DNA of 64,000 nucleotides from Flagellimonas beolgyonensis. Lineage in GTDB: Bacteria; Bacteroidota; Bacteroidia; Flavobacteriales; Flavobacteriaceae. The notes under the pieces are model-generated. The model did not search any database and was not told the DNA's origin. It was given only the letters and a program-made list of their open reading frames with translations. Positions 26,410 to 53,759 of this stretch are shown here, in pieces. The stretch is taken from the NCBI RefSeq assembly GCF_003992615.1, contig NZ_RZMY01000006.1, positions 310,001 through 374,000 on the forward strand. The letters are read 5' to 3'. Both the position numbers and the translations under genes were made by a program. Every line of letters starts with the position of its first letter. Position 1 is the stretch's first letter.

Positions 26410-26428
26410 TTCGGTACTATTTTTCTAA

Positions 26429-29113: not shown

Positions 29114-29132
29114 GTGTCGATTTTTTGTTTAG

Positions 29133-30620: not shown

Positions 30621-30624
30621 CTTT

Positions 30625-33600: not shown

Positions 33601-33660
33601 TTGGGCGGACATTACACCTACTCCCAAAAGGAATATGAGTATGCTTAGTTTGCGCTTCAT
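30625..33660 (-). CDS. susC: SusC/RagA-family TonB-dependent receptor of the beta-glucan locus
   Basis: An outer-membrane importer of 1011 residues. It has a signal peptide (ILIFLLGVGVMSAQ), a CarboxypepD_reg-like domain (about 22-105), a TonB box region DEVVVIGYGTQTKKE, a plug with IRIRGISTNGDNRPLILVDG and GIYGVRAANGVVLITTK, then a 22-strand barrel ending in the aromatic YLLGVNLKF. Unlike the second SusC of this window, it lacks an STN domain, which fits control by the adjacent one-component regulator rather than by sigma/FecR. It is the first gene of the operon susC-susD-SGBP-GH16-GH. Confidence 0.96.
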   Translation of the reverse strand: MKRKLSILIFLLGVGVMSAQNFTVSGTVYDQTTNEPLPGVNVLVKNKTVGTTTDFDGIFSIENIAVGDILVFSYISFKSQEITVTGSDDLTVYLQEDVSKLDEVVVIGYGTQTKKEITGAVTVVGSETIEELNPTQIEQALQGQVAGVNITSGSGSPGSGLNIRIRGISTNGDNRPLILVDGNVIEDLSVLNPGDIESINVLKDATAGIYGVRAANGVVLITTKTGRKNSDLKFSYDAFGGFQQTSRTIPVLNATEYALIVNEAFAAGGQSVPYPNLSRLGTGTNWQDEVFQNAPIINHNLTVNGGSEKSTYSFGSSLLTQDGIVGGNKANFKRYTTRVNFNTDLLQNLKLTTNLLYTGTERKTLAENAIGSVLFNALNNAPTFAVKDANGEFTLAEGLGNEVINPLAQIENTFNKTKVDRLSGKVALNYGFLDHFTAETSLQFNYSEVQGRSFNPTIFYGSGKVFNNVGRNTLFVNKDIFKDYTFDAFVNYSNTFGEKHNLQGTLGMSVFRTQGQFSGTTQGFFENETTFPEADIEDTVDRRNGLVDSGLSGKFDERLLSYFARVQYDYDGKYLISGVIRRDGSTKFGPNNRFGYFPSGSVGWIVSEEEFMQQSDFLNFLKLRGSYGILGNDRIPSNGFRGVLNGEGAYVWNGNLVFGQAVGVLSNPEIQWEEQKTYDIGVDLRLFNNAVDITADYFDKTTEGLLLQPQVSGILGASAPGAQPPVVNGGTVKNRGFEFAIGYNYNPSDDFSLSINYNATFLDNEVTEVNNEAGFLQGGSFGVGQDPPARMEAGKPIGYFYGLETDGLFQNQTEVDNHATQANAAPGEIRFVDQNNDGVIDSDDRVDIGNPIPDATMGLNLSITYKNFDFGAYTFASIGNEIVRNYERNQPLVNRSVYTLNRWIGEGTSTTQPRVTTGATSNTLFSDFFVEDGSFVRIQNAQLGYSFPQEMLNSVGIDKLRVYVSANNIYTFTKYRGYDPSASSGTPIGAGIDPGFYPVPRTYLLGVNLKF

Positions 33661-33897
33661 GTGCAGTTAGTTTTGAATTTGCAAACTATTCCATACTAAT
33701 TAGGAAACCATAAAAAGAACCTCAACAAAAAATATACATTCTCAAAAAAATGAAGCTATTTTTATCATATCGTTAATGAACCCCTGTAAAATCAATGACT
33801 TTCAGAAAGTTCTGTTGAGGAAAATTAACCGCTGATACGAGTCAAATTTGTTAATTGTATAGGTAATGTTGTGGTGAAATAGGACGTTATATAGGGT
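33661..33897. promoter_or_regulatory. Control region between the PUL regulator and susC, with two inverted repeats
   Basis: These 237 bp hold no gene. Two symmetric elements stand out: ACTTTC-a-GAAAGT (33798-33810, perfect 6-1-6) and AATTAAC...GTTAATT (33823-33829 and 33850-33856, 20-bp spacer). Either could bind the neighbouring LuxR-type regulator. I found no clean TTG/TAnnTTTG promoter for susC. The region is AT-rich. Confidence 0.4.
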
Positions 33898-36717: not shown

Positions 36718-36823
36718 AGATTTTAAAGGTAGCAAAATTACAGTAATCCATTTGCAAACTTTGCGAAGTCTCAAATGTTGAAAATAGAAAAGACCTCACA
36801 TCTCACAAAGCTGCTATTTCACA

Positions 36824-38278
36824 TCAATACAACTCTATATTGGAAAGAATAGGACATCCCAGCGCATTGGTAATGGATACTTTGACCTTGGAAGATTCGA
36901 CCCCACCCAATGGCAGAATGCGTTTGTAACCTATAGTGGTTGCATGTGCAACTTCGGTCCAAACCCCATTTTGCCACACATGTACCTTAAAAGCTGCGAT
37001 ACGCTGCCCAAGGGGTATATATTCTTGAAGAATCAGGTAATTCAATTTTTGGGGTGAAGACAGCTCAAGTTCAATGGAAGCTTGGGTTATATCATCATCG
37101 GTGGCCCAATAGGTTTCAAAATCAGCATCCAAGACATTTTGAGGGGCATAATCACCGTCATTGCCGCGGAAGTTGGTGGCCATTATTTTTGCCGTACTTG
37201 CATAATTCGTTTGGAACACACTATCCAGAATTTTTCTCAATCCCTGCAGGGAAGCCACATCGTTTTCATGAAACTGTCCTGTTTGATCGGGTGGAATGTT
37301 CAACAAAAGATTGGATCCTCTCCCTACTGAAGTCATATAAATTTCAAAAAGCTTTTCCGGAGATTTGACCAGGGTATCTTGGGACTCGTGATAAAACCAA
37401 CCCGGCCTTATGGAAACATCCACCTCAGCAGGTATCCATTTGCTACCACCTTGGGTGCCATGTTGCAAAAGGTTCTCAATTCCTGCTTTGCCCGCATACA
37501 GGGTATCTGGAGTGATTGTATTCCAATTGGTTTCCCCTGCCACTCCCCTCTCGTTGCCCACCCAACGTAAATCCGGACCGGCATCGCTGAAGAACACTAC
37601 TTGGGGCTGCATGGAATCGACCATTTTGAGGGTTGTGGGCCAATCGTAATAACGTTGCCTATCAATGGTTCGGGTTTCATTGGCTCCCCCATAATAGCCA
37701 TCGCCACCATTGGCTCCATCGAACCACATTTCAAAAATGGGTCCGTAACCTGTAAACAATTCCTTGAGTTGATCTCGATAATAGTCCACATAGGAAGATT
37801 GCCCATAATCCGCTCGATTTCTATCCCAAGGCGAAACATAGACCCCGAATTTAAGCCCATGTTTCTTGGCTGCATCGGCAACAGCTTTCACAACATCCCC
37901 TTCACCATTCATAAATGGACTGTTCTTGACGGAATGCTCGGTAAATTTCGAAGGCCAAAGGGCAAACCCATCATGGTGCTTCGCTGTCAGAATCACCCCT
38001 TTAAATCCGGCATCCTTTAAAGATCTAATCCATTGTTCCACATTAAAATCGGAAGGATTGAACAGATTCGGGGATTCGTCTCCATAGCCCCATTCTTTAT
38101 CGGTGAAGGTGTTGATGCTGAAATGCACAAACGCATTGAGCTCCATGTGGTGCCAAGCCATTTGATCCTCAGTTGGTATTGGTCCAAAAGCCGATGGTGG
38201 GGAAATCGTTTCCTTTTTACCGCATGAAGTACTATTGATGATAACGAAAAGCCCAAACAACCATAGGAAACGATACAT
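36824..38278 (-). CDS. GH29 alpha-L-fucosidase lipoprotein with C-terminal discoidin-like domain
   Basis: The signal ends in NSTSCGK (lipidated Cys19). The catalytic barrel shows MELNAFVHFSINTF, GVILTAKHHDGFALWPS and GPIFEMWFDGANGG, where Asp187 is the family nucleophile. SVGRGSNLLLNIPPD marks the end of the barrel. Residues from about 360 form an F5/8-type beta domain (DFETYWATDDDITQASIELEL, LNYLILQEYIPLGQRI) likely to bind carbohydrate. Fucose is not part of laminarin, so this gene may serve another glycan. It lies 106 bp downstream of the regulator and 28 bp before the aldo/keto reductase. Confidence 0.93.
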   Translation of the reverse strand: MYRFLWLFGLFVIINSTSCGKKETISPPSAFGPIPTEDQMAWHHMELNAFVHFSINTFTDKEWGYGDESPNLFNPSDFNVEQWIRSLKDAGFKGVILTAKHHDGFALWPSKFTEHSVKNSPFMNGEGDVVKAVADAAKKHGLKFGVYVSPWDRNRADYGQSSYVDYYRDQLKELFTGYGPIFEMWFDGANGGDGYYGGANETRTIDRQRYYDWPTTLKMVDSMQPQVVFFSDAGPDLRWVGNERGVAGETNWNTITPDTLYAGKAGIENLLQHGTQGGSKWIPAEVDVSIRPGWFYHESQDTLVKSPEKLFEIYMTSVGRGSNLLLNIPPDQTGQFHENDVASLQGLRKILDSVFQTNYASTAKIMATNFRGNDGDYAPQNVLDADFETYWATDDDITQASIELELSSPQKLNYLILQEYIPLGQRIAAFKVHVWQNGVWTEVAHATTIGYKRILPLGGVESSKVKVSITNALGCPILSNIELY

Positions 38279-39467: not shown

Positions 39468-40892
39468 TTACCATAGCATCGGTAGCAGCAGATAAACGGC
39501 CAAGGCGACAACTATAATCGATATTAGATTCATCAAAATACCTGAACGGACCATATCCGGTATCCTAAGATAACCAGAACCAAAAACCACCGCATTGGGC
39601 GGTGTTGCCACAGGTAGCATAAATGCGCAAGAAGCAGCGGAAGTACAAGCCACCAATAACAGAAATGGATCAATTTGCAAGGTAAGTGCCAAAGGGGCCA
39701 AAACGGGTAGCATCATCGCCGTTGTTGCCAAATTGGAGGTCACCTCTGTTAAAAAGTTAATGCTTGTAATGATCAAAAGCAATAGTAGCAGCAATGGCAA
39801 GCCTTCAAAAAATGCCATTTGACTGCCCAAGTAACTGGCCAGGCCTGTTTCTTCAAAACCGTTGGCAATGGCCATGCCCCCACCAAACAACAATATGATG
39901 CCCCAGGGAATCTTTACGGCTTCTTCCCAATTCAATACTGTCCTTCCCTTACCTGTAGGCAACATGAACAAAACAAGTGCAGCTCCTATGGCAATGATGG
40001 TATCGTCAATATTCGGCATGAATTTTTGCAGGACAAATGATCGGGTAATCCAACAGATGGCCGTGAGCACAAACACCGTTAAAACGAGTTTTTCTTCATG
40101 TTTCATGGGCCCCAATTCCCGAATCAAACGTTCAATTTCCTTTTTTCCGCCAGGAAATTGTCCCTGTTTTAGCGGATAGGCTAACCGCGTGAGATATAAC
40201 CATGCCAGAACCAATAGTAAAATGGATACAGGAAGGCCAAACTTCATCCATTGCCAGAAGGTAATATCCACTCCATATGTTTTTTGCACAAAACCGGCAA
40301 AAACAAGATTGGGTGGGGTTCCAATCAACGTTGCAATGCCCCCGATGGAAGCCGCATACGCAATGGCGAGCATCAACAATTTACTAAAGATGGCATTCTC
40401 ATCTTCAGGAGTTGCAGGATTGTCCTTGAGTTGTTTAACAATGGAAATTGCCATTGGAAGTACCATTACCGTGGTTGCCGTATTGGAAATCCACATGGAT
40501 AAAAAGGCAGTGGCCACCATGAATCCCAGTACAATGGTGTACATATTCGTACCAATAGCCTTGATAATGTATAGAGCAATTCGCTTATGCAGTCCCCATT
40601 TTTCAATGGCCATGGCCAACATGAAGCCCCCCATATATAAAAAAACGTATTTGTGCCCATAACTGGCCGTTGTCTCACCAAGTCCCACTGTACCCATTAG
40701 CGGGAAGAGAACTATGGGAAGTAAGGCCGTTGCCGCAATGGGCAACACTTCCAAAATCCACCAAACACCTATCCATACTGTCGCCGCCAATATATCCCGG
40801 CCTTGCTCCGATAAACCTTCGCCTTTAAAAAAAACATGGACAAGCACAAATAGAAGTGGTCCGAGTACAAAACCTATACGTTTATATGTCAT
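39468..40892 (-). CDS. DASS/SLC13-family sodium:anion symporter
   Basis: A 474-residue permease with about 11-12 helices. The SLC13 signature appears as SNTATTVMVLPMAIS, GTPPNLVFAGF, and in the second half FLTEVTSNLATTAMMLPVL and PVATPPNAVVFGSGYL. Such proteins import di- or tricarboxylates or sulfate with sodium. It is preceded on its strand by the terminator at 40927-40962, so it is likely transcribed from its own promoter rather than with the PL26-like operon. The substrate cannot be assigned. Confidence 0.9.
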   Translation of the reverse strand: MTYKRIGFVLGPLLFVLVHVFFKGEGLSEQGRDILAATVWIGVWWILEVLPIAATALLPIVLFPLMGTVGLGETTASYGHKYVFLYMGGFMLAMAIEKWGLHKRIALYIIKAIGTNMYTIVLGFMVATAFLSMWISNTATTVMVLPMAISIVKQLKDNPATPEDENAIFSKLLMLAIAYAASIGGIATLIGTPPNLVFAGFVQKTYGVDITFWQWMKFGLPVSILLLVLAWLYLTRLAYPLKQGQFPGGKKEIERLIRELGPMKHEEKLVLTVFVLTAICWITRSFVLQKFMPNIDDTIIAIGAALVLFMLPTGKGRTVLNWEEAVKIPWGIILLFGGGMAIANGFEETGLASYLGSQMAFFEGLPLLLLLLLIITSINFLTEVTSNLATTAMMLPVLAPLALTLQIDPFLLLVACTSAASCAFMLPVATPPNAVVFGSGYLRIPDMVRSGILMNLISIIVVALAVYLLLPMLW

Positions 40893-40926: not shown

Positions 40927-40962
40927 AAAAAAAGGGGCGCCGAACAAACATCCGATCGCCCC
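40927..40962 (-). terminator. Strong rho-independent terminator after the PL26-like gene
   Basis: On the minus strand GGGGCG (40962-40957) pairs with CGCCCC (40939-40934) around a 17-nt loop, followed at once by seven Ts (40933-40927). It lies 21 bp after the stop at 40983. It marks the end of the second PUL operon and isolates the DASS gene. Confidence 0.85.
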
Positions 40963-40982
40963 AACCTCGAAGATTACATTTT

Positions 40983-43634
40983 CTAATTCTTATGCATATT
41001 TTCCATCCAATACAGCAGATAAGGAATATTGTACGCGTGGGTCCAACCAAAAACGCGAAGGCCTTGATTTGTTTCCCAATTGGTAAATCTCTTTTCACTT
41101 TTAGGCAAATTGGAAATCTTCACCAAATCATCGCTGAATTCCTGTGCATTGGCATAATCCTGCGGATTTTTGGGCAACACTCCAATTTTAAGGACATTGG
41201 CCCGAGCCAATGCTTCATTGAAGTAGACCATTTCCCCACTTATCTCATAGCCGAGCAATAACGGATAAATGGTGGCCAAATAGGATTCCATTTCATGGTT
41301 TAGTGGAGGAACATCCCTGACCCATCTGGCATGGTCCAAAAGGGCTTTACGAACTTTCTCATCTCCCGTAATCTGCTGGTACTTGTACAAACCTTGGGCC
41401 ACATAGGTTTGGGCATAGCCATACCTATCGAGCAAAAGGTTACCGCCCTGACGTTCCTGGAACTCCAACATCAATCGTACTCGCTCATCCAATTCCTTCT
41501 TGTATTTTTCAAGTTTGGTGGCATCATACAGTTCCACCAAATTCAACACTGAGAGGTATAATCGCCTTCCTCGAAGATCATGCTCACCCCAAATTCGTTT
41601 CAGATAGGTATCGCCGGTCATTTTGGCGACTTCCAGCGCCCGATGATCGGCAGACAGGTAGTAAGAGGCAATCCAACCCTGTATCCAAACATGGGCACTA
41701 AGCAAGGCATACCAATGCTCGTTTGCATGTCGTCGCCCTATACCCAGATAAGGCGTTGATTCTGGTTCATCTTCGTAGTTCCAAAAGTCAATGGCATCGT
41801 TGATCTCTCCAAAATATGTACGTTTTTTGGGCCAATGTATGTTGTCCACATCCATCGTATGCCGGCTCATGGCCTGTGCCAGATTAAAATACTTTGGGTC
41901 TCCTGTCCTCATAAAATTGGTCCAAAGCATAAAGTCCACAGTAGGCTCGTTATTGGTCCATTGTACCCAGTTTCCATTGAAAAAATAGGTCTTACCATCG
42001 CCATAATCGAACATTCCGTACCACGGTTCGTGTTTTTGATTGTAAGCCCACCACTCGAATTTATACTGCATTGCATTTTCAAACTCAGGGTACTGCGTTG
42101 AAAAGGGCGCCATATTGCCATAAACTTTGGAACCTGTATACCATTCCGGAGATGCATGGGCGACCGGGGCATCCAAAACATAATCCATTTTTTGACCTAC
42201 CGAATCAGCTTCCTCACTGTTATGGAAATAGTAAATGAACTCCGTGGTCTTGGTGATTCCTTGGGCAAAATTATCCAACATTTCTCCGTCGGGTTCAGTA
42301 TTGTGCCTTGCAAAACTCATGGGGCCATTGTTTTTGGGCCAAATGCTTCCCACCAACGTTTTGGTTGTTGGATCCATCTCAATTCCTTTTGGATATTCCT
42401 TCAAAAAATTCTTGATACCTACCCCAACTCCACGCTTTCCATCAGAGACGTTAAGCCATCCTTTGGCCCTCTGGGATTCGGCGACTTTTTCGTCTCCTTT
42501 TGTAATAGTTGCTCTGAATGTGGGGGTATCTCCCTTACTTTCCTTGTTATCCTCTGTTTTAAACCCGTTCCGATAAAGGCTTCGTAAACTTGTGCTTTCC
42601 TTTCTATCGGGGCCCTGCTGTAGCAATTCCACCGGAGTTTGTCCGTTTATTGCCACTTCTTGCATTACAGCACCTGAGTCGGAATCCAACCAGCTTCCTT
42701 TGAACATAGGCATGGTAACGCTGACATCATCATCCAAATGGTACTTGAACTGTAGTCCACAGGCTGCAATTTGATCATTTGGCTGTGTCCAACCCATATC
42801 GTCCTCAGTATCTTCCGATATTATTTTTTTGTTCTGTGTGGCTATGTTGGCATGTTGCCCCTCCTGCTGTTTGTGCTTATCCGGTACACCGGTATAGGTC
42901 ATGGTATGCAACACCTTGATGTAGCTTTTTCCGGCATAGGCATGTAACCAAAGGGTAAAGGGAGAAAGATTGTTATCGGGACGATCATAGGTATAGGTAC
43001 CTTCCACCCTAAATATGGAATGCATTGGTCCGGAACCTTTTTCACGAAAGACCTCATTGATCACTGCTTTTGACGAATCTACCCCAGCATCGTCCAATAG
43101 ATCTAAAAACGAGCCCCTGTTCTTTTCTGGCGAGGTGGCTATCAATTCATCTTCTTGAAATTCCCTGTCATTATTGGAATCCAGATATACCTCATCCAAA
43201 AATCCATTACCCTTTTTATGAATGGAGAAGGAAATCGGTCCTGTATTGACATCGATACCTCCTTGGGGCCTCATATTGTTCATTGAAACAATCTTTTCTG
43301 TGGGCAACATGGGTACTACATCTTCGCCGTATTCCAAAATATAATCGGAACCTTCTTCAGCGAAAAAGAAGACCCAAGCCCATTTGATACTGTTATCCAA
43401 TGGTCCCCAATTGGTCACCTCTGTGGTCTGGCAGGGAATTTCTTTACCGTCTGACGTAAGTAACCGTACATGGTCTACCGATTGTAGTTCCCCTTTGGGG
43501 AAAGGTATGCCCAAGGTAACAGGAGCACCGAGCTTGTTATTCTCAATGGTGATGGCAACTTGTTTACCAGGTTTGGCTGGTGTACAAGATTTCAATATGA
43601 AACATGCCAGCAATATTAGTGTTACTATTCTCAT
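40983..43634 (-). CDS. PcRGLX/YetA-like (PL26-type) polysaccharide-degrading lipoprotein
   Basis: From the ATG at 43634 (a TTG lies 7 codons upstream) the protein has 883 residues and a lipoprotein signal (ACFILKSCTPAK). The N-terminal RIFT-barrel region shows GAPVTLGIPFPKGEL and LDNSIKWAWVFFFA. The middle holds YWYTG-like and FEWWAYNQKHEPWYGMFDYGD segments, and the C-terminal part is an alpha-toroid with repeated aromatic helices. This layout is that of PcRGLX exo-rhamnogalacturonan lyases (PL26) and YetA-like proteins. Many relatives are uncharacterised, so true lyase activity on rhamnogalacturonan is not assured. It closes the operon with PIG-L, MFS and ROK genes. Confidence 0.72.
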   Translation of the reverse strand: MRIVTLILLACFILKSCTPAKPGKQVAITIENNKLGAPVTLGIPFPKGELQSVDHVRLLTSDGKEIPCQTTEVTNWGPLDNSIKWAWVFFFAEEGSDYILEYGEDVVPMLPTEKIVSMNNMRPQGGIDVNTGPISFSIHKKGNGFLDEVYLDSNNDREFQEDELIATSPEKNRGSFLDLLDDAGVDSSKAVINEVFREKGSGPMHSIFRVEGTYTYDRPDNNLSPFTLWLHAYAGKSYIKVLHTMTYTGVPDKHKQQEGQHANIATQNKKIISEDTEDDMGWTQPNDQIAACGLQFKYHLDDDVSVTMPMFKGSWLDSDSGAVMQEVAINGQTPVELLQQGPDRKESTSLRSLYRNGFKTEDNKESKGDTPTFRATITKGDEKVAESQRAKGWLNVSDGKRGVGVGIKNFLKEYPKGIEMDPTTKTLVGSIWPKNNGPMSFARHNTEPDGEMLDNFAQGITKTTEFIYYFHNSEEADSVGQKMDYVLDAPVAHASPEWYTGSKVYGNMAPFSTQYPEFENAMQYKFEWWAYNQKHEPWYGMFDYGDGKTYFFNGNWVQWTNNEPTVDFMLWTNFMRTGDPKYFNLAQAMSRHTMDVDNIHWPKKRTYFGEINDAIDFWNYEDEPESTPYLGIGRRHANEHWYALLSAHVWIQGWIASYYLSADHRALEVAKMTGDTYLKRIWGEHDLRGRRLYLSVLNLVELYDATKLEKYKKELDERVRLMLEFQERQGGNLLLDRYGYAQTYVAQGLYKYQQITGDEKVRKALLDHARWVRDVPPLNHEMESYLATIYPLLLGYEISGEMVYFNEALARANVLKIGVLPKNPQDYANAQEFSDDLVKISNLPKSEKRFTNWETNQGLRVFGWTHAYNIPYLLYWMENMHKN

Positions 43635-43655
43635 TTTATAACTTAGGTTATTCAA

Positions 43656-44492
43656 TTACAGACAAAGTGCAGCTGCACCCAACTCGGGCGAATCCACCAA
43701 ATCTGATGTTTCAATTTTAAAATGTTCCAATTGTTTTTGATAGGCGAAAGTGTCCAATGCGGATTGCAACGACTTTTCAAAAAAAGTGTAGGCACGACTT
43801 ATGGATCCACCAAGAATTATGGCTTCGGGCGCAAACATGTATAGGATGGCCTTGATGGCCTCTCCCAAATGCACACCATACTCTCCAAAGGCCATTAAGG
43901 CGGTGGAATCATTCATCAAGGCCTTTTTATACAACTCCTTGGCAGATTGCCCATACTTCCCATCAAAAAAGAAGCTACCTGCATAATGCTCCAAAATTTT
44001 GTCTTTGTACGGGAGCATGCCCACCTCTCCTGCTCCACACAAAACCCCATTGTAGAGCTCGTTGTTAATGATAATGCCCATACCGAGTCCAGTACCCAAG
44101 GAAAGGGCCACACAGTTTGCATGGTCCATGGCCTTTCCAAAATATTTTTCACCCAACGCAAAGCAATTGGCGTCGTTGTTTATGTGTGCGGGTATTTGAT
44201 ATCTGTCCTGAATCAAATCCTTCATTGGAACTTCTTTCCAAGACGGAATGTTCTGTACATCATACACTACACCGGACTCCGGATCCACCACGGCGGGGAC
44301 ACCTATGCCAATGGCTTCAATGGAATCGGTTATTATTGTATCGATTGCATCGTAAAGCTTTTCCAAGGAAACTTCCACAGAGTCGCTGGGATCAACGTCG
44401 ATAATATGGCTCTTAAGGACCTCTCTTCCCTTAACCTTGCCCAATTTTATCTTGGTCCCACCAATGTCAATCCCCAATATTTCCTTCTCCAT
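43656..44492 (-). CDS. ROK-family sugar kinase
   Basis: The N-terminus EILGIDIGGTKIKLG is the ATP phosphate-binding loop of ROK kinases. Substrate and fold motifs GIGVPAVVDPESGVVYDVQNIPSW, HINNDANCFALGE with the catalytic Asp, and LSLGTGLGMGIIINNELYNG follow. The usual ROK zinc motif (CxCGxxGC) is replaced by a sequence without those cysteines, GAGEVGMLPYKDKILEHYAG, a form known in ppgk-like and some Bacteroidota kinases. The ATG at 44492 is 2 bp after the MFS stop. It probably phosphorylates the hexose imported by the MFS permease. Confidence 0.9.
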   Translation of the reverse strand: MEKEILGIDIGGTKIKLGKVKGREVLKSHIIDVDPSDSVEVSLEKLYDAIDTIITDSIEAIGIGVPAVVDPESGVVYDVQNIPSWKEVPMKDLIQDRYQIPAHINNDANCFALGEKYFGKAMDHANCVALSLGTGLGMGIIINNELYNGVLCGAGEVGMLPYKDKILEHYAGSFFFDGKYGQSAKELYKKALMNDSTALMAFGEYGVHLGEAIKAILYMFAPEAIILGGSISRAYTFFEKSLQSALDTFAYQKQLEHFKIETSDLVDSPELGAAALCL

Positions 44493-44494
44493 GA

Positions 44495-45757
44495 TCACTT
44501 TTCTTTTTTTAGACTTATTGTCTTATTGTTGACCAATGGCTTGGCCCAAAATCCTATGGTAAAAATGAAAGCCAAGGGAATCAGCAAAAAGAACATACCG
44601 GATCGTAATGTTAACAGCTCGCCCAGTCCTCCCACTATGAAAGGAATAACAGCTCCGCCCGCTATACCCGTACAAAGAATGCCGGATAGCGAACCGTGAT
44701 GTTCCTTTACCGAATTGAGCGCCAATGAAAAAATGATGGAGTACATGACGGATATAAAGAATCCTACCATGGGAAAACCGATGAGAGCCATTTGGGGCGA
44801 TCCCGTCAATGCCAAAACAAGACTGCCAATGGTAATGGCCGTAGCCAAAATCAGTAGTTTTCGGCTGTCCATAAACTTCAACAGCAGCAGGCCCAGCAGA
44901 CATCCTACTGTTAACATGGCCCAAAAGTAGGATACAGTGTCCGCGCCAATAGTCTGTGGATCTAGATCATGATACTGATAAAGGAACTGTGAAATCCAAT
45001 TGCCCACTCCCTGCTCTGTTCCCACATAGCAAAAGATGCCCAAGAAATATAGAATGGTCCATTTGTTCTTCAACAAGTCCCAATAGGATCTCTTATCACC
45101 AGCCTGTTCATCTTCTTTCTTTTCAAACTTGGGATATTTGGTGACAAGTACATAAACAAAGAGCAGCATGGAAATAGCCGCAAAAACGATATAAAGAGAT
45201 GCCCATGGCAAATTTTGAGGCACCCAACCACGTAATACTTCTGCGATTGTTCCACTTGTTGAAGGCTTATTATTGACCAAATATTTATAGAGGTAAGGAC
45301 TTAAGAACGAGGCAGCCCCAAATACCAATTGTGCCAGCACCGAATTGAACGCAAAGTGCTCTTCTCCCCCGGCCACCCGAAGCATGGGATTGATGATGAC
45401 CTGTAAAACGGCCATACAACACCCCAAGGTAAACAGGGTTATACTGAACACTCCGTATTGTGGAAATAGGGCAAAACCCAGGGAAGCAAGCGCCATGACC
45501 AAAAAAGACAAGGAAAGTAGGGTTCTCTCACTATACTTTTCGGTTAGGAATCCAGCGGGAATGGACATAATTCCATACGCAATAAAGAAAGTGAAAGGCA
45601 AGAGTCCTGTTAATGTTAGGCTCAGATCAAAACTATCCTTTACATCCACAATGATCGAATTCAGAATATTGGTAATGAACGATATCACAAAGAACACGAT
45701 CATTACCAAGGCAATCAGGTGGATATATCTTTTGGTCTTGGGCTTGCTGGTCTCCAT
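44495..45757 (-). CDS. Sugar MFS transporter (FucP/GluP-like)
   Basis: A 420-residue permease with 12 predicted helices, starting with a basic tail (METSKPKTKRY). FFIAYGIMSIPAGFLTEKYSERTLL matches the helix 2-3 motif of the FucP group, and QVIINPMLRVAGGEEHFAFNSVLAQLVFG matches the region around helix 4 that holds the sugar-contacting Asn. FCYVGTEQGVGNWISQFL marks the start of the second half. It imports a monosaccharide with protons; the specific sugar is not known. It lies 2 bp before the ROK kinase and 49 bp after PIG-L. Confidence 0.9.
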   Translation of the reverse strand: METSKPKTKRYIHLIALVMIVFFVISFITNILNSIIVDVKDSFDLSLTLTGLLPFTFFIAYGIMSIPAGFLTEKYSERTLLSLSFLVMALASLGFALFPQYGVFSITLFTLGCCMAVLQVIINPMLRVAGGEEHFAFNSVLAQLVFGAASFLSPYLYKYLVNNKPSTSGTIAEVLRGWVPQNLPWASLYIVFAAISMLLFVYVLVTKYPKFEKKEDEQAGDKRSYWDLLKNKWTILYFLGIFCYVGTEQGVGNWISQFLYQYHDLDPQTIGADTVSYFWAMLTVGCLLGLLLLKFMDSRKLLILATAITIGSLVLALTGSPQMALIGFPMVGFFISVMYSIIFSLALNSVKEHHGSLSGILCTGIAGGAVIPFIVGGLGELLTLRSGMFFLLIPLAFIFTIGFWAKPLVNNKTISLKKEK

Positions 45758-45806
45758 TTAGTGGTCGGTTATATTTGTTTGGATTTTCCTGGGTGGTCAG
45801 TGTATT

Positions 45807-46694
45807 TTATTTTGACCCCAACATGGGGAACAATTCTTTGATCTCAGCTTCGGTGGGTTGTTTTCCATATTCACAGATTTCGAAAAACTCCACTTGCTTC
45901 ACCTTTGAAATATCGGCATTGGGATACCATTTTTTCACCACTTCCAAGGTGCTGGCATCTGGTTTTCTGTTCATCCATTTATCTTTTAACCAGGCCAACC
46001 TTTCCTGCTCACCGGTGGGTATGGTGGATAGATCGGTGCCATTGGTCCAAGGCAACCATTCGAACATTTGGGAATCGTGGGCGGCCAGTCCCTTAACCTT
46101 GGTGTCGATAACATCGTCAACTATCACGGCAATATCCTTTTGGAACGGATAGGGCTTTTTAAAGTGATCACTCATATAGAGAAATACCGGGTTCTTTTTC
46201 AAAGGTGGGGTATCCGGTGCCACGTTGGGCACAATGTTCATATAGGCGGCATCCTGAACAACGGACCCTGCATTTCTATGGTCTGGATGATAATCGTTTG
46301 GTCTAAGACCCAACACGATATCGGCGTTCCAATCACGTATTCTTCGGATTACCTCCAACCTCACGTTCAAAGTTGGAAACAATTCACCATCGTGGTTGTC
46401 CAACACTTCATATTCCGCAATGCCCAGGGCCTTTGCGGCATCCTTGGCCTCTTGTCTACGTTTTTTTGCCAACGGGCCTCCGCCCATACTCTGATGGCCT
46501 GCATCGCCATTGGTAAGGGCCAAAAACTTAACATTATGGCCCATTTTGGCAAACAAAGCCGCCGTTCCCCCAAACTTGGAATCACAATCATCAGGGTGCG
46601 CCCCGATGGCAATGATGTTGAGTACTTTTTTTTCTTGCGCCCCCACTATTGCAACGGCAAAGCATAGGCAAAATGTCAATAGTAATTTTCTCAT
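45807..46694 (-). CDS. Secreted PIG-L-family deacetylase
   Basis: From the ATG at 46694 the protein has a signal peptide (LLLTFCLCFAVAIVGAQ) and the LmbE/PIG-L fold. Zinc ligands are in IAIGAHPDDCDSKFGG and in NDYHPDHRNAG; LTNGDAGHQSM and RRQEAKDAAKALG complete the family pattern. Such enzymes remove N-acetyl groups from amino sugars or conjugates. Its position between susD and the sugar permease suggests that the glycan or a fragment carries an N-acetyl group. It is exported, so it acts on oligosaccharide in the periplasm. Confidence 0.9.
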   Translation of the reverse strand: MRKLLLTFCLCFAVAIVGAQEKKVLNIIAIGAHPDDCDSKFGGTAALFAKMGHNVKFLALTNGDAGHQSMGGGPLAKKRRQEAKDAAKALGIAEYEVLDNHDGELFPTLNVRLEVIRRIRDWNADIVLGLRPNDYHPDHRNAGSVVQDAAYMNIVPNVAPDTPPLKKNPVFLYMSDHFKKPYPFQKDIAVIVDDVIDTKVKGLAAHDSQMFEWLPWTNGTDLSTIPTGEQERLAWLKDKWMNRKPDASTLEVVKKWYPNADISKVKQVEFFEICEYGKQPTEAEIKELFPMLGSK

Positions 46695-46897
46695 TTTATA
46701 AATGGATTTATTCATTGTTTTATGGCAATTGGTTACCTGGCCGTGTCTTTGGACACCACCGTCTTTCTGTTTCATTATCAGTTGTGATCAGCCTCTTAAA
46801 ATGCCCATAGATTCATAAGTAGGCGTATGGTATGGGACCTCGTCAATCAAACAATCACAATTATGAAAACAATCTTTGGTCGCCTTTTGCGCGATTA

Positions 46898-48277
46898 TTA
46901 ATTCTGTACAAAATTTGGATTGATGTCCATTTCCCGTTGCGGAATAAAAAAGTATTCCCTGGTACCGGTAATGAAAGGTTCGGCCTCGATGATCTTGCCA
47001 ACTGCGCCAAAACGCTTTAAATCTGGCCATCTATGGTTCTCAAATGCCAATTCCACCCTTCTTTCATGGAGCAGTTTTTCCTCGAAAGTGCCAGGTGTGG
47101 CAGCATCAATATCTGCCAATCCAGCCCTGTTCCTTACTTCATTGATCAGATCATAACTTTCGGCGGTCTCACCCAAAGCTTCGGCCAACATCAACAATAC
47201 ATCGGCATACCTGAACACGACAAAGTTGATGTCCGAGTCGTTTTCAATGGCAAGGTCGGATTGGTATTTTTTGATATACCTGGCCTCTACCACTTCGCCT
47301 TCAAGATTCACATAGGAATCGCCCATGGAGGCATCGTACCTCAAATCGCCCGCCTCATAGGCTTCCAACATGGAAACGGTAGGACGGTTTCTGCCAAAAC
47401 CGGAACCGGTCTGCAAATCGGTACTGGGTGAAAAATCGTTGGTAAACAGACTTCCCTGTCCAATACCTCCGCTGATGTACTGTACCTCAAATATGGACTC
47501 GGCGTTGTTTTCGTTGGAAACACCCCATAAATTGGCATAATCGGGCAACAATTCATAACCGTAGTTGGCAATGATGCGTCGCAATACGGTTTCTGCTGCC
47601 GAATTATCGCCCAGGGTCAACAATACTTTTGCAAGCAAAGTTGCCGCTGCACCTTTGGTGGCCTTACCTACCAGACTGCCCGAATACGAAACAGGAAGCA
47701 GTTCTTCGGCTTGCATGAGGTCAGTTACCAGCTGTTGCAATACGGTATCCTCGTTTACCTGTACCAATTCGTCACCAGATACAAATGGCTCCAATTGCAA
47801 AGGAATGTTTCCAAAAGCAATGGCCATGTGGTAATACACCAAAGACCTAATGAACAAAGCCTCGCCCGTAACCCGGTTCTTGGCAGCTGTTTCCATTTCA
47901 ACGTTTGGAATGCGGCTTAGAATCACATTACAATTGGCAATCACTTTATAGGATTCGCTCCAAGCTGAGGTTACCTGTTCGTTCAAAGCATCTTCGGTAA
48001 AGGAATTGATTTCGGTGTATTGCCTGGCCAAACCTGTTGCGTCGGGACCTTGGTCGGTATTGTCGCTCCGCATTTCAAACATGGTCCAATACCCACGACC
48101 ATATACGCCCGTGCTCTGAAGGCCTGCATAACTTGCATTTATGGCTACCTCAAAATCATCGGATGAATTGTAAAAGTCCGCCTCATTTCTATTGGAAATG
48201 GGTGCCAAATCGGTAAAATCTTCACTACACCCCATGATCATGGAGGTACAAAGCATTATATATAGAATTCGTTTCAT
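46898..48277 (-). CDS. susD: SusD/RagB-family lipoprotein of the second PUL
   Basis: The 459-residue protein has a lipoprotein signal (LCTSMIMGCSEDF). SusD hallmarks: RNEADFYNSSDDFEVAINASYAGLQ, ALFIRSLVYYHMAIAFGNIPL, KATKGAAATLLAKVLLTLGD, NFVVFRYADVLLMLAEALGE and HERRVELAFENHRWPDLKRFG. It partners with the SusC encoded 17 bp upstream. A gene-free 203-bp stretch separates it from the PIG-L gene; I see no terminator there. Confidence 0.95.
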   Translation of the reverse strand: MKRILYIMLCTSMIMGCSEDFTDLAPISNRNEADFYNSSDDFEVAINASYAGLQSTGVYGRGYWTMFEMRSDNTDQGPDATGLARQYTEINSFTEDALNEQVTSAWSESYKVIANCNVILSRIPNVEMETAAKNRVTGEALFIRSLVYYHMAIAFGNIPLQLEPFVSGDELVQVNEDTVLQQLVTDLMQAEELLPVSYSGSLVGKATKGAAATLLAKVLLTLGDNSAAETVLRRIIANYGYELLPDYANLWGVSNENNAESIFEVQYISGGIGQGSLFTNDFSPSTDLQTGSGFGRNRPTVSMLEAYEAGDLRYDASMGDSYVNLEGEVVEARYIKKYQSDLAIENDSDINFVVFRYADVLLMLAEALGETAESYDLINEVRNRAGLADIDAATPGTFEEKLLHERRVELAFENHRWPDLKRFGAVGKIIEAEPFITGTREYFFIPQREMDINPNFVQN

Positions 48278-48294
48278 TTTTCCGTTTTTTTAGG

Positions 48295-51200
48295 TTAGAA
48301 CTTTAGGTTTAAGCCGACGGTGAAGGACTTGGTCAATGGAAATGCACCATAATCCTCCCCAGGTGTTAAACTGCTGGTGGTTATATTACTAACCTCTGGG
48401 TTGTATCCCAGATAATCGGTGATGGTAAAAAGATTGGTCCCTGTTACATAAAAACGCAGTCTTTGAATCTTGTTTCCAAACAAGTTATCGGTGGGCAACG
48501 TATAACCCAGGGTCACGTTACGCAAACGCACATAGGAACCATCTTCTACCTGAAAAGATGAAGGTCTGTTATTGTTGCCATGGTTACCGGATTCCCGATC
48601 TGCCCTTGGTACACTGCCATTCCCTGGATCTGATGGTGATCTCCATCGTTCATTGAAAATGGCATAGGAATTAAAATTCGCTTCACCATTTTTCATGTGG
48701 CGCGATGTTAGGTTCAATATCTCATTGCCCTCCACGCCTTGGATCAAGAAACTAAAATCGATGTTCTTGTACGTAAGCCTGTTGTTCACCCCCCAAGTGA
48801 AATCAGGAAAATAACTACCTGTTACCGTCCTATCATCCGGAGTGATCTGGCCATCACCATTAATGTCCTTGAACCTAAAATCTCCCAAACCGGGGTTCGG
48901 TGCCTGTGTGTCTACAGGTGCATTGTCCAAATCGGCCTGAGTTTGGTAGATGCCATCCACCACATAACCGTAATAACTACCAATCGGATCGCCAACACGG
49001 GTTACGTGGCGCACACCGGCACTTCCCGATGAATAGATGGGCTCGTTGTCCTCGTTCAGGGAAAGTACTTCATTTTTGTTGGTGGCAAAATTGATATCGG
49101 TATTCCACGTAAAGTCACCAACAAAGTTTTTGGTGCTCAATGCAATTTCAAATCCTCTGTTTTGAACCTCACCCAAATTACGGAGCGTGGTTTCAAAACC
49201 AGAAACGGAGGAAATAGCCACGTTCAACAATAGGTCCCTCGTTTTGGTATCGTAATAATCGGCCAAAAGGAATACCCTGTTATTGAACAAACCAAGCTCA
49301 ACCCCTATATCCACTTGCTCTGATTTTTCCCAAGTCAAGTTCGGATTGGGAATGGTACTTTGCACCAAACCATTGATTTCGTTACCGCCAAGGTTGTAGT
49401 TTTGTGGGGACAACAATCCCACTGCACCATAGTTAGGGATTTCAAAGTTCCCTGTCTGGCCCCAGCTCATTCGCAGCTTCAGTTCTGAAATGGTCTCGGA
49501 ATCGGCCAAGAAATCTTCCTCGTTCAAACGCCATCCCACAGAAAAAGAGGGAAAGTAACCTGTTTGGTTATTTTTACCGAACCTTGAAGATTTGTCAGAT
49601 CGAATGGTTCCTGTAAAAAGGTATTTGTCCTTGAAGCTATAATTGACCCTAAAAAGGGAAGACAACAACGACCATTGCTCTTTTACCGAAGTACCACCGA
49701 ACACCTGTCCACCACTTATGGTTGGAACAAGATCATCAGGATAATTGTTGGCAAGCACACTTTTCAGTGCCAAATTGTCTTTTTGGGCGGTATATCCCAA
49801 AACGGCATCGATGTAGTGATCACCGAATTCTTTTTTCCAGCTCAATGTATTTTCCCAAAGCCAGTTGGTCTCTGTTGATGAAGATGCCTGACCATATGGG
49901 TTTCCATCCGCAGAATTTCGGAATAACAGGGTGTTGGCCCTGTAAAAATCTTGGTTGAAAAGGTTGATGTAGACACCTCCAAATGTTTTGAAGCTCAGTT
50001 CTGGTAAGATATCATAGGTCAAGCCCAATGTTCCCCTAGTCTGAAACTGAAAAATTTGATCGTCCACCGCTTCAATGATCGCCAATGGATTACTGGCCGT
50101 TGTGGTACCACCTCCCAAGTAGGATTGGTTGTTCAACTGGTTAATGGTGCCATCCGGATTGTATGGACTCACTGTTGGAGAATGCACAATGGCCGAGTAT
50201 ACGATACCCGGGGGTGTCGCAAAATAAGGGGCCGAAGCCGGTACCCTTTGGTTTTCGGTCACCGTCGGCGCCAATCGCAGATCCAAGTTCAATTTTTCAG
50301 TGAGCTGCGAATTTAGGTTCAACAACACCGAATATCTTTCAAACTTCGATTTTTCAATGATTCCTGTTTGGGAAAAATAACCCGTGGAAGCATAAAAGCT
50401 TGTTTTGTTACGCACAGGCGAGGCATAGGAGAAATTATAGCTCTGAACGATTCCGGTCTTGAAGATCAAATCTTGCCAATCGGTGTCCGTACCATCCCAG
50501 TTTACAAAGGATTCGGGCAATTCATAGTTAGCGTTGCCCCTATCCCCTGGTCCTATGGGATCATCTATGGAAGCACCGGGCACTGAAGCCAAGTAGTTAT
50601 TGTTCCGTGCATCCCTGGTAAAGTCAATAAGCTCCTGTGCATTCATCAGATCCAATTTATTGGCCACGGATTGCATACTTACATAGGAATCAAAAGAAAA
50701 GATACCTTCTTCAGAATTAGATCCCTTTTTGGTGGTGATCAACAATACCCCGTTACCACCCCTGGAGCCATAAATGGCCGCAGCACTGGCATCTTTCAAC
50801 ACCTGAATGGATTCGATATCGTTGGGGTTCAACGTCGCCAAAGGGTTAATGGTCGGTGGCTGAAAAGCGGCACGTCTATTGGAAACACCCCCCAATTGAC
50901 TTGACGAGGTCAAATTCCTTGAAATTGGAATACCATCGACCACGAACAACGGATCGTTACCTGCCGAGATAGATCCGGAACCCCTTACCCGAATGTTTGG
51001 GGCAGCACCCGGTTCTCCGGAAACCTCCTGTACCTGCACCCCGGAAACTTGCCCGATAAGGGCACCTTCTGGTGTAAGTGCCGGTACTTCAACAATGGTC
51101 TCAGGTGTAATGGAAACTACCGAACCGGTAACTTTGGTCTTTGCCAAGGTACCATACCCCACTACAACAACCTCTTCCAAAGCTGCCGCATCTTGTTGCA

Positions 51201-51825
51201 TGGTTACGGTTACGGTTGTAAGTCCAGCAACGTTTACCTCTTTTGGTCTGTACCCAATATAGGTCACCTGTATCACCGTAACCCCTGCGGGCAATGTCAT
51301 TTCAAAATTTCCGTCGAAATCGGTGGTGGCGCCAACTGAAGTGCCTTTGGCAATAATTGTTGCTCCTGGCAATGGAACCCCAGCTTCATCCAAAACAGTG
51401 CCCGAAAGGTTGGATTGTGGATTGTCAGGTTCAATCTTACTTTTCGGGGTCAACGACGGAAGCGCTCCTTCGGTCTGTTTTTTAACCACAATCTGTCGGG
51501 CTATGACCTCGAAGGTGAGATCTGTTCCTTTAAATACTTCTTTTAAAAAATCTTCTATACAAAGATTGGACTTGTTAACGGTCACCTTGCGGTTTAGGTC
51601 CACCTCTGTGGCTTCATAAAAAAACTTGTAACCCGTGTACTCCGTGATTTTATCGAACACAGTGCCCATCTCTTGGTTTTTGATGGTCAATGCAACAACA
51701 TCATTCTGTTCGCATGACATTTCCGCGGCGTACCCAAAATTACAGGTCAGCAACAGCACCATACTGTAGAGCATCGCAAAGCACAGCTTATGTGCTTTAC
51801 AGCAGCTAAAATTGGTTTTTCTCAT
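48295..51825 (-). CDS. susC: SusC/RagA TonB-dependent receptor with STN signalling domain
   Basis: The 1176-residue receptor has a signal peptide, an STN (secretin/TonB short N-terminal) domain at about 40-118 (ALTIKNQEMGTVFDKITEYT...IARQIVVKK), a CarboxypepD_reg-like domain (LSGTVLDEAGVPLPGATIIAKG), a TonB box region and plug (AAIYGSRGGNGVLLITTKKG), and a barrel that ends in FTVGLNLKF. The STN domain contacts the periplasmic part of FecR, so substrate uptake can be signalled to the ECF sigma factor encoded upstream. This is the trans-envelope type of SusC. Confidence 0.96.
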   Translation of the reverse strand: MRKTNFSCCKAHKLCFAMLYSMVLLLTCNFGYAAEMSCEQNDVVALTIKNQEMGTVFDKITEYTGYKFFYEATEVDLNRKVTVNKSNLCIEDFLKEVFKGTDLTFEVIARQIVVKKQTEGALPSLTPKSKIEPDNPQSNLSGTVLDEAGVPLPGATIIAKGTSVGATTDFDGNFEMTLPAGVTVIQVTYIGYRPKEVNVAGLTTVTVTMQQDAAALEEVVVVGYGTLAKTKVTGSVVSITPETIVEVPALTPEGALIGQVSGVQVQEVSGEPGAAPNIRVRGSGSISAGNDPLFVVDGIPISRNLTSSSQLGGVSNRRAAFQPPTINPLATLNPNDIESIQVLKDASAAAIYGSRGGNGVLLITTKKGSNSEEGIFSFDSYVSMQSVANKLDLMNAQELIDFTRDARNNNYLASVPGASIDDPIGPGDRGNANYELPESFVNWDGTDTDWQDLIFKTGIVQSYNFSYASPVRNKTSFYASTGYFSQTGIIEKSKFERYSVLLNLNSQLTEKLNLDLRLAPTVTENQRVPASAPYFATPPGIVYSAIVHSPTVSPYNPDGTINQLNNQSYLGGGTTTASNPLAIIEAVDDQIFQFQTRGTLGLTYDILPELSFKTFGGVYINLFNQDFYRANTLLFRNSADGNPYGQASSSTETNWLWENTLSWKKEFGDHYIDAVLGYTAQKDNLALKSVLANNYPDDLVPTISGGQVFGGTSVKEQWSLLSSLFRVNYSFKDKYLFTGTIRSDKSSRFGKNNQTGYFPSFSVGWRLNEEDFLADSETISELKLRMSWGQTGNFEIPNYGAVGLLSPQNYNLGGNEINGLVQSTIPNPNLTWEKSEQVDIGVELGLFNNRVFLLADYYDTKTRDLLLNVAISSVSGFETTLRNLGEVQNRGFEIALSTKNFVGDFTWNTDINFATNKNEVLSLNEDNEPIYSSGSAGVRHVTRVGDPIGSYYGYVVDGIYQTQADLDNAPVDTQAPNPGLGDFRFKDINGDGQITPDDRTVTGSYFPDFTWGVNNRLTYKNIDFSFLIQGVEGNEILNLTSRHMKNGEANFNSYAIFNERWRSPSDPGNGSVPRADRESGNHGNNNRPSSFQVEDGSYVRLRNVTLGYTLPTDNLFGNKIQRLRFYVTGTNLFTITDYLGYNPEVSNITTSSLTPGEDYGAFPLTKSFTVGLNLKF

Positions 51826-51893
51826 AATGAATTAGTCTAGTTAGTTAGTATTTGTTTTTTGGTCCATTGGTTTAAGTTCAAATCATAGGCACT

Positions 51894-53069
51894 CTATTGT
51901 TTATTAGGTTTTATCATTATTATCTTTCCTTGTTTCTCGTAACTAAAGTTGGTGTGGGCCTGGATTGTCCTCAACACATGATCTATATCCTCCACATCGA
52001 ACATACCGGTAAACCTTCGCTCACCCAATGTTTCATTTTGATTGACAATCTGAATGTTATATTGTCGCTCCAACCTTTTTATGATCTTGGTCATTGCTTC
52101 GTTTTCGAAGGCCAAAATGCCCTTGGTCCAAGAAATGTATGGGGTTACGTCTACGTTTTCCAATACAAAGCCAGTATCGGATTCCGCGCTTTTGGCAAGT
52201 TTTTGGGAAGGCTCCATCATCTGAAGACCTGCTTTTTCATCTGAATTTGGCTTGCCCACCCCAACAGATCCTTCAACAAGGACCACTTCTTCCGTACCAT
52301 CCTCTTCGTAAGCGGCAACATTGAACACGGTTCCAAAAACTTGGGTATACATACCTTTAGTTCGAACTATAAATGGCTGCTCAGGATTTTTTGCCACTTC
52401 GAAAAAAGCTTCTCCGTTGAGTTGGACCACTCTTTGGTCCATACCTTCAAAACTATTGGGATAAACCAGCGATGATCCAGAATTCAGCATCACCACCGAT
52501 CCATCTTGAAGCGTTACCGACAGTTTCTTACCGTAGGGCACCCGCAAAATGTTTTCCTTACCTATTTCTTTTTCGTCGGTAACACTTTCTTGACTCAAAA
52601 CTCCATGAACCAAGGATATCACTGCATTCCCTGTTTTGCTTTTTAGGGTAACATCGGTATCCGGGTCCAAACTGATCACTTCACCGTTCTCCAGTTGCAG
52701 CGTGATCATGTTGGGGTCAATTGGAGGGGCAATGTTATCCTGTACATTCTTTTGGGTAAAGAAAAACAAGGAAGACGCAACGATCACCACAACGGCTGCG
52801 GCATATTTCCAAACATGTGGTCTGGCAATAATGGATCGCACTCCTTTGGATTCGTTCTTTTTAATAGATCTTAAAAAATCTTCGAAAGCCGCTTCGGAAT
52901 CCCAGCTCTTATCTTGGTAATTGACCAAAAAATCGGCCTGAACAAACTTTTTGAACACTTCATCATTGTTTCCCTTCTTTACCCATTCATAAAGAATGGA
53001 AAGTTCCTCTTGGGTCGCTTCATGGTTGATATACCTGATAATTATTCTTCTGATATCGAGCTTGGTCAT
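51894..53069 (-). CDS. FecR-family anti-sigma factor
   Basis: A 391-residue single-pass membrane protein. The cytoplasmic part (about 1-88) can hold the sigma factor; the TM helix is YAAAVVVIVASSLFFF. The periplasmic FecR domain shows VPYGKKLSVTLQDGSVVMLNSGSSLVYP and the GEAFFEVAKNPEQPFIVRT segment. The C-terminal DUF4974-type domain (ISWTKGILAFENEAMTKIIKRLERQYNI) is the likely contact for the STN domain of the downstream SusC. It lies 135 bp after the sigma gene and 68 bp before susC. Confidence 0.95.
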   Translation of the reverse strand: MTKLDIRRIIIRYINHEATQEELSILYEWVKKGNNDEVFKKFVQADFLVNYQDKSWDSEAAFEDFLRSIKKNESKGVRSIIARPHVWKYAAAVVVIVASSLFFFTQKNVQDNIAPPIDPNMITLQLENGEVISLDPDTDVTLKSKTGNAVISLVHGVLSQESVTDEKEIGKENILRVPYGKKLSVTLQDGSVVMLNSGSSLVYPNSFEGMDQRVVQLNGEAFFEVAKNPEQPFIVRTKGMYTQVFGTVFNVAAYEEDGTEEVVLVEGSVGVGKPNSDEKAGLQMMEPSQKLAKSAESDTGFVLENVDVTPYISWTKGILAFENEAMTKIIKRLERQYNIQIVNQNETLGERRFTGMFDVEDIDHVLRTIQAHTNFSYEKQGKIIMIKPNKQ

Positions 53070-53204
53070 TCGAATTAATTTAACTCTACAACCAACAGAC
53101 GTAGGTTTTTACAAAAACCCTTACTCAAATTGAAAATTTTAACAAAAAAAATGATGATAGGTCGACTTTACGTCTAGAATTGTGCATTGTAGACAATGAG
53201 GCTA

Positions 53205-53759
53205 TTAGAAGAAAATGGTCAATTGTGCACGTAATCGTTTTAACGCCTTGGCCATGTGCACCTCAACTGTTTTGATGGAAATATGGAGACGGTCGGAGAT
53301 TTCCTGATATTTGAGCCCTTCCTTTTTACTCATAATAAAGACCTTCTTACATTGTTCAGGCAAATTTTCAATTTCTTGTTCCACCATTTTAAGTTTTTCC
53401 TCAAAGAGTGAGGCATCCGTATCCACTAAATCCAAATAGGCGGCATGTTTGAGGTTTTCAAGGAGTTCAAACTCCTTTTTCTTTTTTCGCTTGGTATCCA
53501 CAAATTGATTGTAGGCTATCCTGAAAATGTATTGCTTAAGCTTACCCTCCTGCAAATTCAGATTTTCCCTGTTGTCCCATAACTTTATGAAGGTTTGTTG
53601 GGCGATATCCTCGGCCAACTTGGCATTCCCTGAAATTGCCTGGATGTAATTACAAAGGTCTTTATGGTATAGTTTGAACACTTGTTTAAAGGCATTGGAG
53701 TTTCCTTCTTTCAATTGTCCAATCAGCAGATCCTCATCGAAAATTAGTTTTCGGTTCAT
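53205..53759 (-). CDS. ECF sigma factor (RpoE-like, Bacteroidetes PUL type)
   Basis: The 184-residue protein has sigma region 2 (FKQVFKLYHKDLCNYIQAISGNAKLAEDIAQQTFIKLWDNR) split across its first third, and region 4 (LPEQCKKVFIMSKKEGLKYQEISDRL...SIKTVEVHMAKALKRLRAQL). Together with the adjacent FecR and STN-SusC it forms a cell-surface signalling unit that turns on the second PUL. A perfect 8-2-8 inverted repeat lies about 100 bp upstream of its start. Confidence 0.96.
   Translation of the reverse strand: MNRKLIFDEDLLIGQLKEGNSNAFKQVFKLYHKDLCNYIQAISGNAKLAEDIAQQTFIKLWDNRENLNLQEGKLKQYIFRIAYNQFVDTKRKKKKEFELLENLKHAAYLDLVDTDASLFEEKLKMVEQEIENLPEQCKKVFIMSKKEGLKYQEISDRLHISIKTVEVHMAKALKRLRAQLTIFF

Follow-up and report, generated by a model that had tools for sequence, protein, structure and literature searches.

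A conserved ECF-sigma/FecR-controlled SusCD operon of Flagellimonas beolgyonensis and its candidate role in scavenging an amino-sugar conjugate

Gene content of the locus

We analyzed a 64,000-nucleotide stretch of the Flagellimonas beolgyonensis genome (contig NZ_RZMY01000006.1, positions 310,001 to 374,000; hereafter the window), which carries on its minus strand a nine-gene SusCD operon controlled by an extracytoplasmic function (ECF) sigma factor and a FecR-type anti-sigma factor (Table 1). The original prediction had placed a sigma/FecR-driven polysaccharide utilization locus (PUL) at 40927-53759, combining a PL26-like protein, a PIG-L deacetylase, a ROK kinase and an MFS sugar transporter. 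All eight gene families that it named were matched by unbroken open reading frames (ORFs), running from 53759 to 40983, and the sigma/FecR-driven SusCD character of the locus was borne out. The proposed extent covers these eight genes; however, the unit runs on to 39468 with a ninth gene, a DASS anion symporter, and position 40927 falls between the PL26-like and DASS genes. The SusC and SusD genes are adjacent, as in a PUL, and the PL26-fold and PIG-L proteins are the putative degradative enzymes. The MFS and ROK ORFs overlap by 4 bases, the ROK and PL26-like ORFs abut, and a later methionine may be the true start of the PIG-L ORF. A promoter and terminator scan gave the same counts as in shuffled sequences.

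SusCD utilization loci controlled by ECF-sigma/anti-sigma pairs are known in Bacteroidota, and an STN domain on a TonB-dependent transporter is the arrangement for signaling to FecR. The operon resembles these loci in that sigma, FecR, STN-bearing SusC, SusD and putative degradative genes lie in one run. It differs from them in having a deacetylase and two inner-membrane carriers, one for anions, and by family matches none of the nine genes encodes a glycoside hydrolase or an endo-acting enzyme, the lack of the latter having been predicted. We found no paper on such a locus in the open-licence PMC literature (searched for PcRGLX/PL26, for PIG-L with SusC/SusD and for utilization loci), and no characterized PUL with a known substrate was matched within what could be searched. 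The operon is familiar in type but uncommon in its combination of enzymes and carriers, and is undescribed as far as could be searched.

Table 1. Genes of the operon, in order of transcription (window coordinates).
Product	Position	Strand	Supporting matches
ECF sigma factor, FecI type	53205..53759	-	TIGR02985 142 bits (cut-off 126.4); Sigma70_r2, r4_2
Anti-sigma factor, FecR type	51894..53069	-	FecR and FecR_C domains
SusC TonB-dependent transporter with N-terminal STN signaling domain	48295..51825	-	TIGR04056 899 bits; STN, Plug
SusD lipoprotein	46898..48277	-	SusD_RagB, SusD-like_3; lipoprotein signal judged by eye
PIG-L/LmbE deacetylase, probably exported	45807..46775	-	PF02585 89.7 bits (cut-off 28.2); HPDD...HPDH intact; signal peptide judged by eye
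MFS sugar transporter (GluP/FucP/NagP group)	44495..45757	-	PF07690 (MFS_1); TIGR01272 117.9 bits (below cut-off 202.55)
ROK-family sugar kinase	43656..44498	-	PF00480 153.2 bits
PL26-fold lipoprotein (PcRGLX-like)	40983..43655	-	PF19501, PF21345, PF21346 over cut-offs; lipoprotein signal judged by eye
DASS sodium-coupled anion symporter (gene nine)	39468..40892	-	PF00939; TIGR00785 322 bits (cut-off 198.6)

Conservation of the gene set

Conservation of the gene set was assessed with the PL26-like protein as query. Of 299 genomes searched within the family, six contain it, the window's own included. Three of these (G120, G014 and G125) have the same eight genes in the same order within differing flanks, with the PIG-L gene doubled in G014 and G125. 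A fourth, G290, keeps PIG-L, SusD, SusC, MFS and ROK in rearranged form, with no sigma or FecR match within the 29 kb read, and the contig of G251 is too short to judge. Scanning contigs yielded 163 relatives; the 80 best loci were retained and form the basis of all counts out of 80 below; 59 of them span at least 22 kb and are referred to as full-flank loci. The run sigma-FecR-SusC-SusD-PIG-L-MFS-ROK-PL26 is uninterrupted in 34 of the 80 loci, and in 25 of these 34 a DASS gene directly follows the PL26-like gene. Within the largest cluster at 70% identity, which includes the close Flagellimonas/Maribacter relatives, DASS is present in 29 of 38 loci. All 59 full-flank loci have PIG-L (any of three PIG-L kinds, by tblastn), 55 have SusC, 55 SusD, 55 MFS and 56 ROK. 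In L026 and L053 the PIG-L ORF is masked by a longer overlapping ORF and was recovered by tblastn. As a small control, seven loci were picked by DASS, all from cassette-bearing genomes; one has a PIG-L match (29% over 136 amino acids) and none has MFS or ROK. Since the PL26-like proteins form only 19 clusters at 70% identity, the 59 full-flank loci are not 59 independent events. With the eight-gene order kept in 34 of 80 loci, and with flanks that differ in G120, G014 and G125, the gene set is a real conserved unit, more than chance would give. Looser forms of the cassette were found in other phyla. A class-wide profile search recovered 3 of 395 genomes at E 1e-20, the window's own counted, and the cassette is therefore rare across the class. 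A search bearing on plasmid-borne spread found no match to the PL26-like protein among 72,556 plasmid records.

Several loci were distinctive in their own right. Six of them, under six Flagellimonas/Allomuricauda species names (L018, L019, L021, L022, L039 and L054), carry the same type of cassette, flanked by an AbiEii-type gene, at 98.6% identity over 22.6 kb, each compared with L018. The L018-type cassette also occurs in L023, a Leeuwenhoekiella metagenome-assembled genome, at 99.2% over 17 kb. Judged by the identity of the loci, as opposed to whole genomes, this near-identity may reflect the recent transfer of one long segment. In four Flagellimonas/Allomuricauda genomes there are two different cassettes (L019 and L024, L021 and L025, L022 and L060, L036 and L054), and such paired cassettes may recognize different forms of the substrate. 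In two Cytophagales-type loci an FAD oxidase gene lies between SusD and PIG-L (L061:5338-6537 and L087:6623-7852); its nearest model is N-methyl-L-tryptophan oxidase, with a score below the cut-off.

Candidate amino-sugar genes and the PL26-fold protein

The metal-binding motif HPDD...HPDH of the PIG-L/LmbE superfamily is present in the window PIG-L and in each of the 71 window-type cassette proteins that were read, of which all 71 have YHPDHR and 58 have HPDDC; four PIG-L proteins of other kinds were judged by motif inspection only. By similarity the window protein scores about equally with diacetylchitobiose deacetylase (69.7 bits) and with BshB (2ixd; 65.5 bits). It resembles the archaeal diacetylchitobiose deacetylase (Dac; PDB 3we7, 3wl4, 8bgn), with which some 195 residues align and the motifs HPDDC, RR.E and HPDHR are shared. 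Unlike Dac, the cassette protein is apparently exported, by a signal peptide judged by eye, and is partnered with a PL26-fold protein. The best NCBIfam model is BshB1 at 113.5 bits, below the equivalog cut-off of 182.5, and a separate BshB1 is encoded elsewhere in the same genome (301.8 bits). In one report, Arg109 of BshB, which precedes HPDH, contacts the docked substrate (PMC4101496); in contrast, all 71 window-type cassette proteins have a Tyr in its place. The proposal that the PIG-L protein acts as a BshB1 on bacillithiol was considered and found unsupported, given the score below cut-off and this Arg109-to-Tyr exchange. Two loci have a large PIG-L protein with an NPCBM-associated domain near the PL26-like gene (L065:18583-21084, 833 amino acids, from Pedobacter; L090:7073-9925, 950 amino acids, from Acidobacteriota), and the short PIG-L was found in neither.

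The nearest models for the MFS transporter are GluP, FucP and NagP, all below their cut-offs, and the ROK protein is nearest to hexose and N-acetylhexosamine kinases, its PDB relatives including glucokinases and ManNAc/GlcNAc kinases. Glucosamine-6-phosphate deaminase (NagB) is encoded immediately behind the PL26-like gene in 7 of the 80 loci and in G125, as a separate gene in three KSB1/Calditrichota loci (L063, L066 and L095) and as a NagB-PIG-L fusion in L046, L049, L055, L059 and G125. Each of the 21 cassette genomes tested has a frame of 638-678 residues that matches PF01182 and equals this fusion in size. The copy in the window's genome lies on another contig; over 629 residues its 638-residue frame shares 55% identity with the L046 fusion, and it is 49% identical to the NagB of L066. 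The idea of two NagB genes in this genome was rejected, the second PF01182 frame (256 residues) being only 24% alike; that frame may encode a 6-phosphogluconolactonase. Taken together, the PIG-L motif, the MFS and ROK assignments and the NagB evidence lead us to infer that glucosamine is a probable intracellular intermediate. The N-acetylated sugar that had been predicted from the deacetylase gains support both from the presence of PIG-L in every full-flank locus and from the NagB genes behind the PL26-like gene.

The PL26-like protein of the window matches PF19501 (33.7 bits), PF21345 (58 bits) and PF21346 (50 bits), all above cut-off. An AlphaFold2 model built with 49 sequences (pLDDT 85.7, pTM 0.89) matches PcRGLX, the PL26 exo-rhamnogalacturonan lyase of Penicillium chrysogenum, over the whole chain (Foldseek E 6.9e-31), and the best PDB match is PcRGLX entry 5xqg (Z 31.7, 705 of 896 residues aligned, 19% identity, rmsd 3.2); other toroid and sandwich proteins follow at Z 17-23, each covering part of the model. 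The modeled protein has the PL26 fold end to end. With PcRGLX (PDB 5xq3, 5xqg, 5xqj, 5xqo) it shares the whole-length architecture and the motifs WYG..DYGD and RHT..VD..H. It differs in its 19% identity, in its constant PIG-L neighbor and in its last ~280 residues, which lie beyond a sequence-profile alignment that takes in the sandwich motifs and the first part of the toroid. Several His and Arg residues that are invariant in the family fall in this unaligned part, and the pocket perhaps differs from that of PcRGLX. That PcRGLX is the nearest solved relative would fit a conventional rhamnogalacturonan locus whose PL26 lyase is exo-acting. We regard this as extremely improbable, given the 19% identity, the C-terminal part without sequence-level alignment, and the absence of rhamnose genes and of any other pectin lyase among the annotated neighbors, which are only part of those in the 80 loci. 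In addition, KDPG aldolase has no match in the window's genome, and PIG-L, a constant of the full-flank loci, has no obvious role in such a pathway.

Putative acid carriers and the proposed substrate

Besides matching the SLC13 family model (Table 1), the window DASS has as its nearest PDB relatives the dicarboxylate carriers SLC13A2 and SLC13A3 (286 and 281 bits). Among the full-flank loci, 34 have DASS, five have the unrelated C4-dicarboxylate carrier DctA and none has both. DctA lies at the cassette in 7 of the 80 loci, of Pedobacter and Chitinophaga type, and exceeded its curated cut-off in the two that were checked (L065 and L081). On a quick tree of the PL26-like proteins, which has some long branches, the DASS label requires nine changes and the DctA label three; other carriers occur in single loci (BASS in L084, SSF in L031). 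Genomes whose cassettes have no linked DASS vary. Those of L031, L043, L049, L061, L064 and L091 have an unlinked copy at 54-66% identity, the best DASS reaches only 40-44% in those of L040, L041, L042, L044, L048, L058 and L062, and no copy was found in the genomes of G014 and L070.

Elsewhere, L136, L137 and L139 each have a close relative of the cassette DASS, and the two genes behind it are alike in size across the three. Those identified encode glycerate kinase and phosphoenolpyruvate carboxykinase (PEPCK) in L137 and glycerate kinase in L139, and this gene group may indicate what this clade of DASS carries.

As an explanation of the whole set we put forward, at about even confidence, that the operon scavenges a small molecule in which an N-acetylhexosamine, most likely GlcNAc, is conjugated to a carboxylic acid. 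SusCD would bring the conjugate across the outer membrane, and SusC, through its STN domain, would signal the presence of the conjugate to FecR and the sigma factor. At the cell surface or within the periplasm, as suggested by signal peptides judged by eye, the PL26-fold lipoprotein would cleave the bond between sugar and acid and the PIG-L protein would take off the N-acetyl group, in either order. The MFS transporter would then import the free amino sugar and the ROK kinase would phosphorylate it, and glucosamine-6-phosphate deaminase, encoded in the operon in some species and here presumably supplied by the unlinked NagB-PIG-L fusion, would yield fructose-6-phosphate. The acid, probably a C4-dicarboxylate, would be imported by DASS, or by DctA in other lineages.

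A number of observations weigh against this explanation. ROK is missing from three full-flank loci (L078, L081 and L091) and MFS from four (L090, L091, L092 and L094), and 20 of the 59 have neither DASS nor DctA nearby. Close relatives of the DASS are common where there is no cassette, E 1e-150 being passed in 61 of 199 Flavobacteriaceae genomes with the window's own counted, and outside the cassette DASS stands beside glycerate kinase and PEPCK (L137) or beside unrelated genes. The sulfate carrier SLC13A1 scores close behind the dicarboxylate carriers (257 versus 286 bits), which would allow sulfate as the cargo of DASS, although the dicarboxylate carriers score best. The PL26-like protein of L083 closely resembles those of DctA-bearing loci, but this locus has instead a lactate permease and a glycerate 2-kinase-like gene, and the acid may therefore not be a C4-dicarboxylate. 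Together with the DASS-glycerate kinase-PEPCK group of L137, this locus suggested glycerate as the acid. However, of 29 other loci only 1 has a relative of the L137 glycerate kinase next to DASS, and L083 is the one cassette locus among the 80 in which a glycerate kinase of either kind was found.

Findings in other cassette genomes speak for the original prediction, which had read the PL26-like protein as a sign of a uronic-acid-containing glycan. Of the 21 cassette genomes, 12 have KduI and 17 have KDPG aldolase. In G014, genes for UxaC, UxuA and a UxuB-like short-chain dehydrogenase/reductase (SDR) lie one ORF beyond the sigma gene (L010:4421-8783), and the opposite flank of the cassette has NagB-like, GH20-like and amidohydrolase genes (L009:1-5688); in G290 UxuA lies near its DASS, so that two of the six loci from the 299-genome search have UxuA near the cassette. 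These neighbors point to hexuronate in G014 and G290. Combined with a PL26-like protein that has the fold and domains of a uronate lyase, they are compatible with a substrate in which N-acetylhexosamine is joined to uronic acid, as in a hyaluronan-, chondroitin- or heparosan-like oligosaccharide or a bacterial capsule, with the PL26-like protein a true uronate lyase and unlinked genes handling the unsaturated uronate. We consider this possible, though on balance unlikely. In the window's genome, which the tool rates as 100% complete, neither KduI nor KDPG aldolase has a match, in a search that did not extend to UxaC/UxuA or non-standard KDG aldolases. The two enzymes are likewise missing from G697 and G698, genomes given without completeness figures. 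No relative of the UxaC, UxuA or SDR of G014 was found in the 80 loci, where KduI was not searched, and DASS and DctA are the acid carriers that occur most often with the cassette. The absence of KduI and KDPG aldolase matches from the window's genome thus weakens the uronic-acid reading for this strain, where a hexuronate product is argued against and a non-standard route would be needed. A PL26-like annotation should not in itself be taken to mean the use of pectin or uronate.

Alternatively, the acid could come from the N-acyl group itself: PIG-L would free a dicarboxylic acyl group (for example N-succinyl or N-malyl) for DASS or DctA, and the PL26-like protein would cut a separate glycosidic bond. 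PIG-L and dicarboxylate-type carriers do co-occur, and LmbE-like enzymes are described as acting on diverse N-acyl substrates (PMC4101496). This is very unlikely, in view of the HPDHR motif that every window-type PIG-L protein shares with diacetylchitobiose deacetylases and the HPDDC motif that most of them share. Furthermore, we know of no common glycan that carries such an acyl group.

A bolder form of the conjugate proposal is that the operon consumes glucosamine-malate conjugates that other bacteria release, for example bacillithiol, N-methyl-bacillithiol or products of their breakdown, with the PL26-fold protein a lyase of a new type. Through the beta-elimination with which PL26 acts on galacturonate, it would then cleave glucosaminyl-malate to glucosamine and fumarate, and the fumarate would be taken up by DASS or DctA; this would account jointly for the lyase chemistry and the C4 carriers. 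According to one study, bacillithiol derivatives are perhaps the most widespread low-molecular-weight thiols in bacteria, and N-methyl-bacillithiol is found in Polaribacter (PMC6282198). We hold the proposal to be quite unlikely, since it is built on predicted chemistry and the PIG-L residues do not favor bacillithiol. BshC is encoded in all 21 cassette genomes, which says little because 133 of 149 genomes of the class have BshC over its cut-off. We found no paper on the consumption or breakdown of bacillithiol or glucosaminyl-malate in the open-licence PMC literature.

The cassette keeps a near-constant order across many Flavobacteriaceae and looser forms in several phyla, yet we did not find its substrate in print. 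Because the gene content predicts specific products, an amino sugar and an organic acid, a few purified proteins could identify the substrate. The host belongs to a largely marine group, and the proposed route would feed on the pieces of an amino-sugar molecule split outside the cell interior.

A second SusCD locus, outside the conserved unit, adjoins the operon at 22890-38278 of the window. It has its SusCD pair at 30625-33660 and 29133-30620, and includes GH16, GH2-like, Y_Y_Y/LuxR-type regulator, fucosidase-like and aldo/keto reductase genes.

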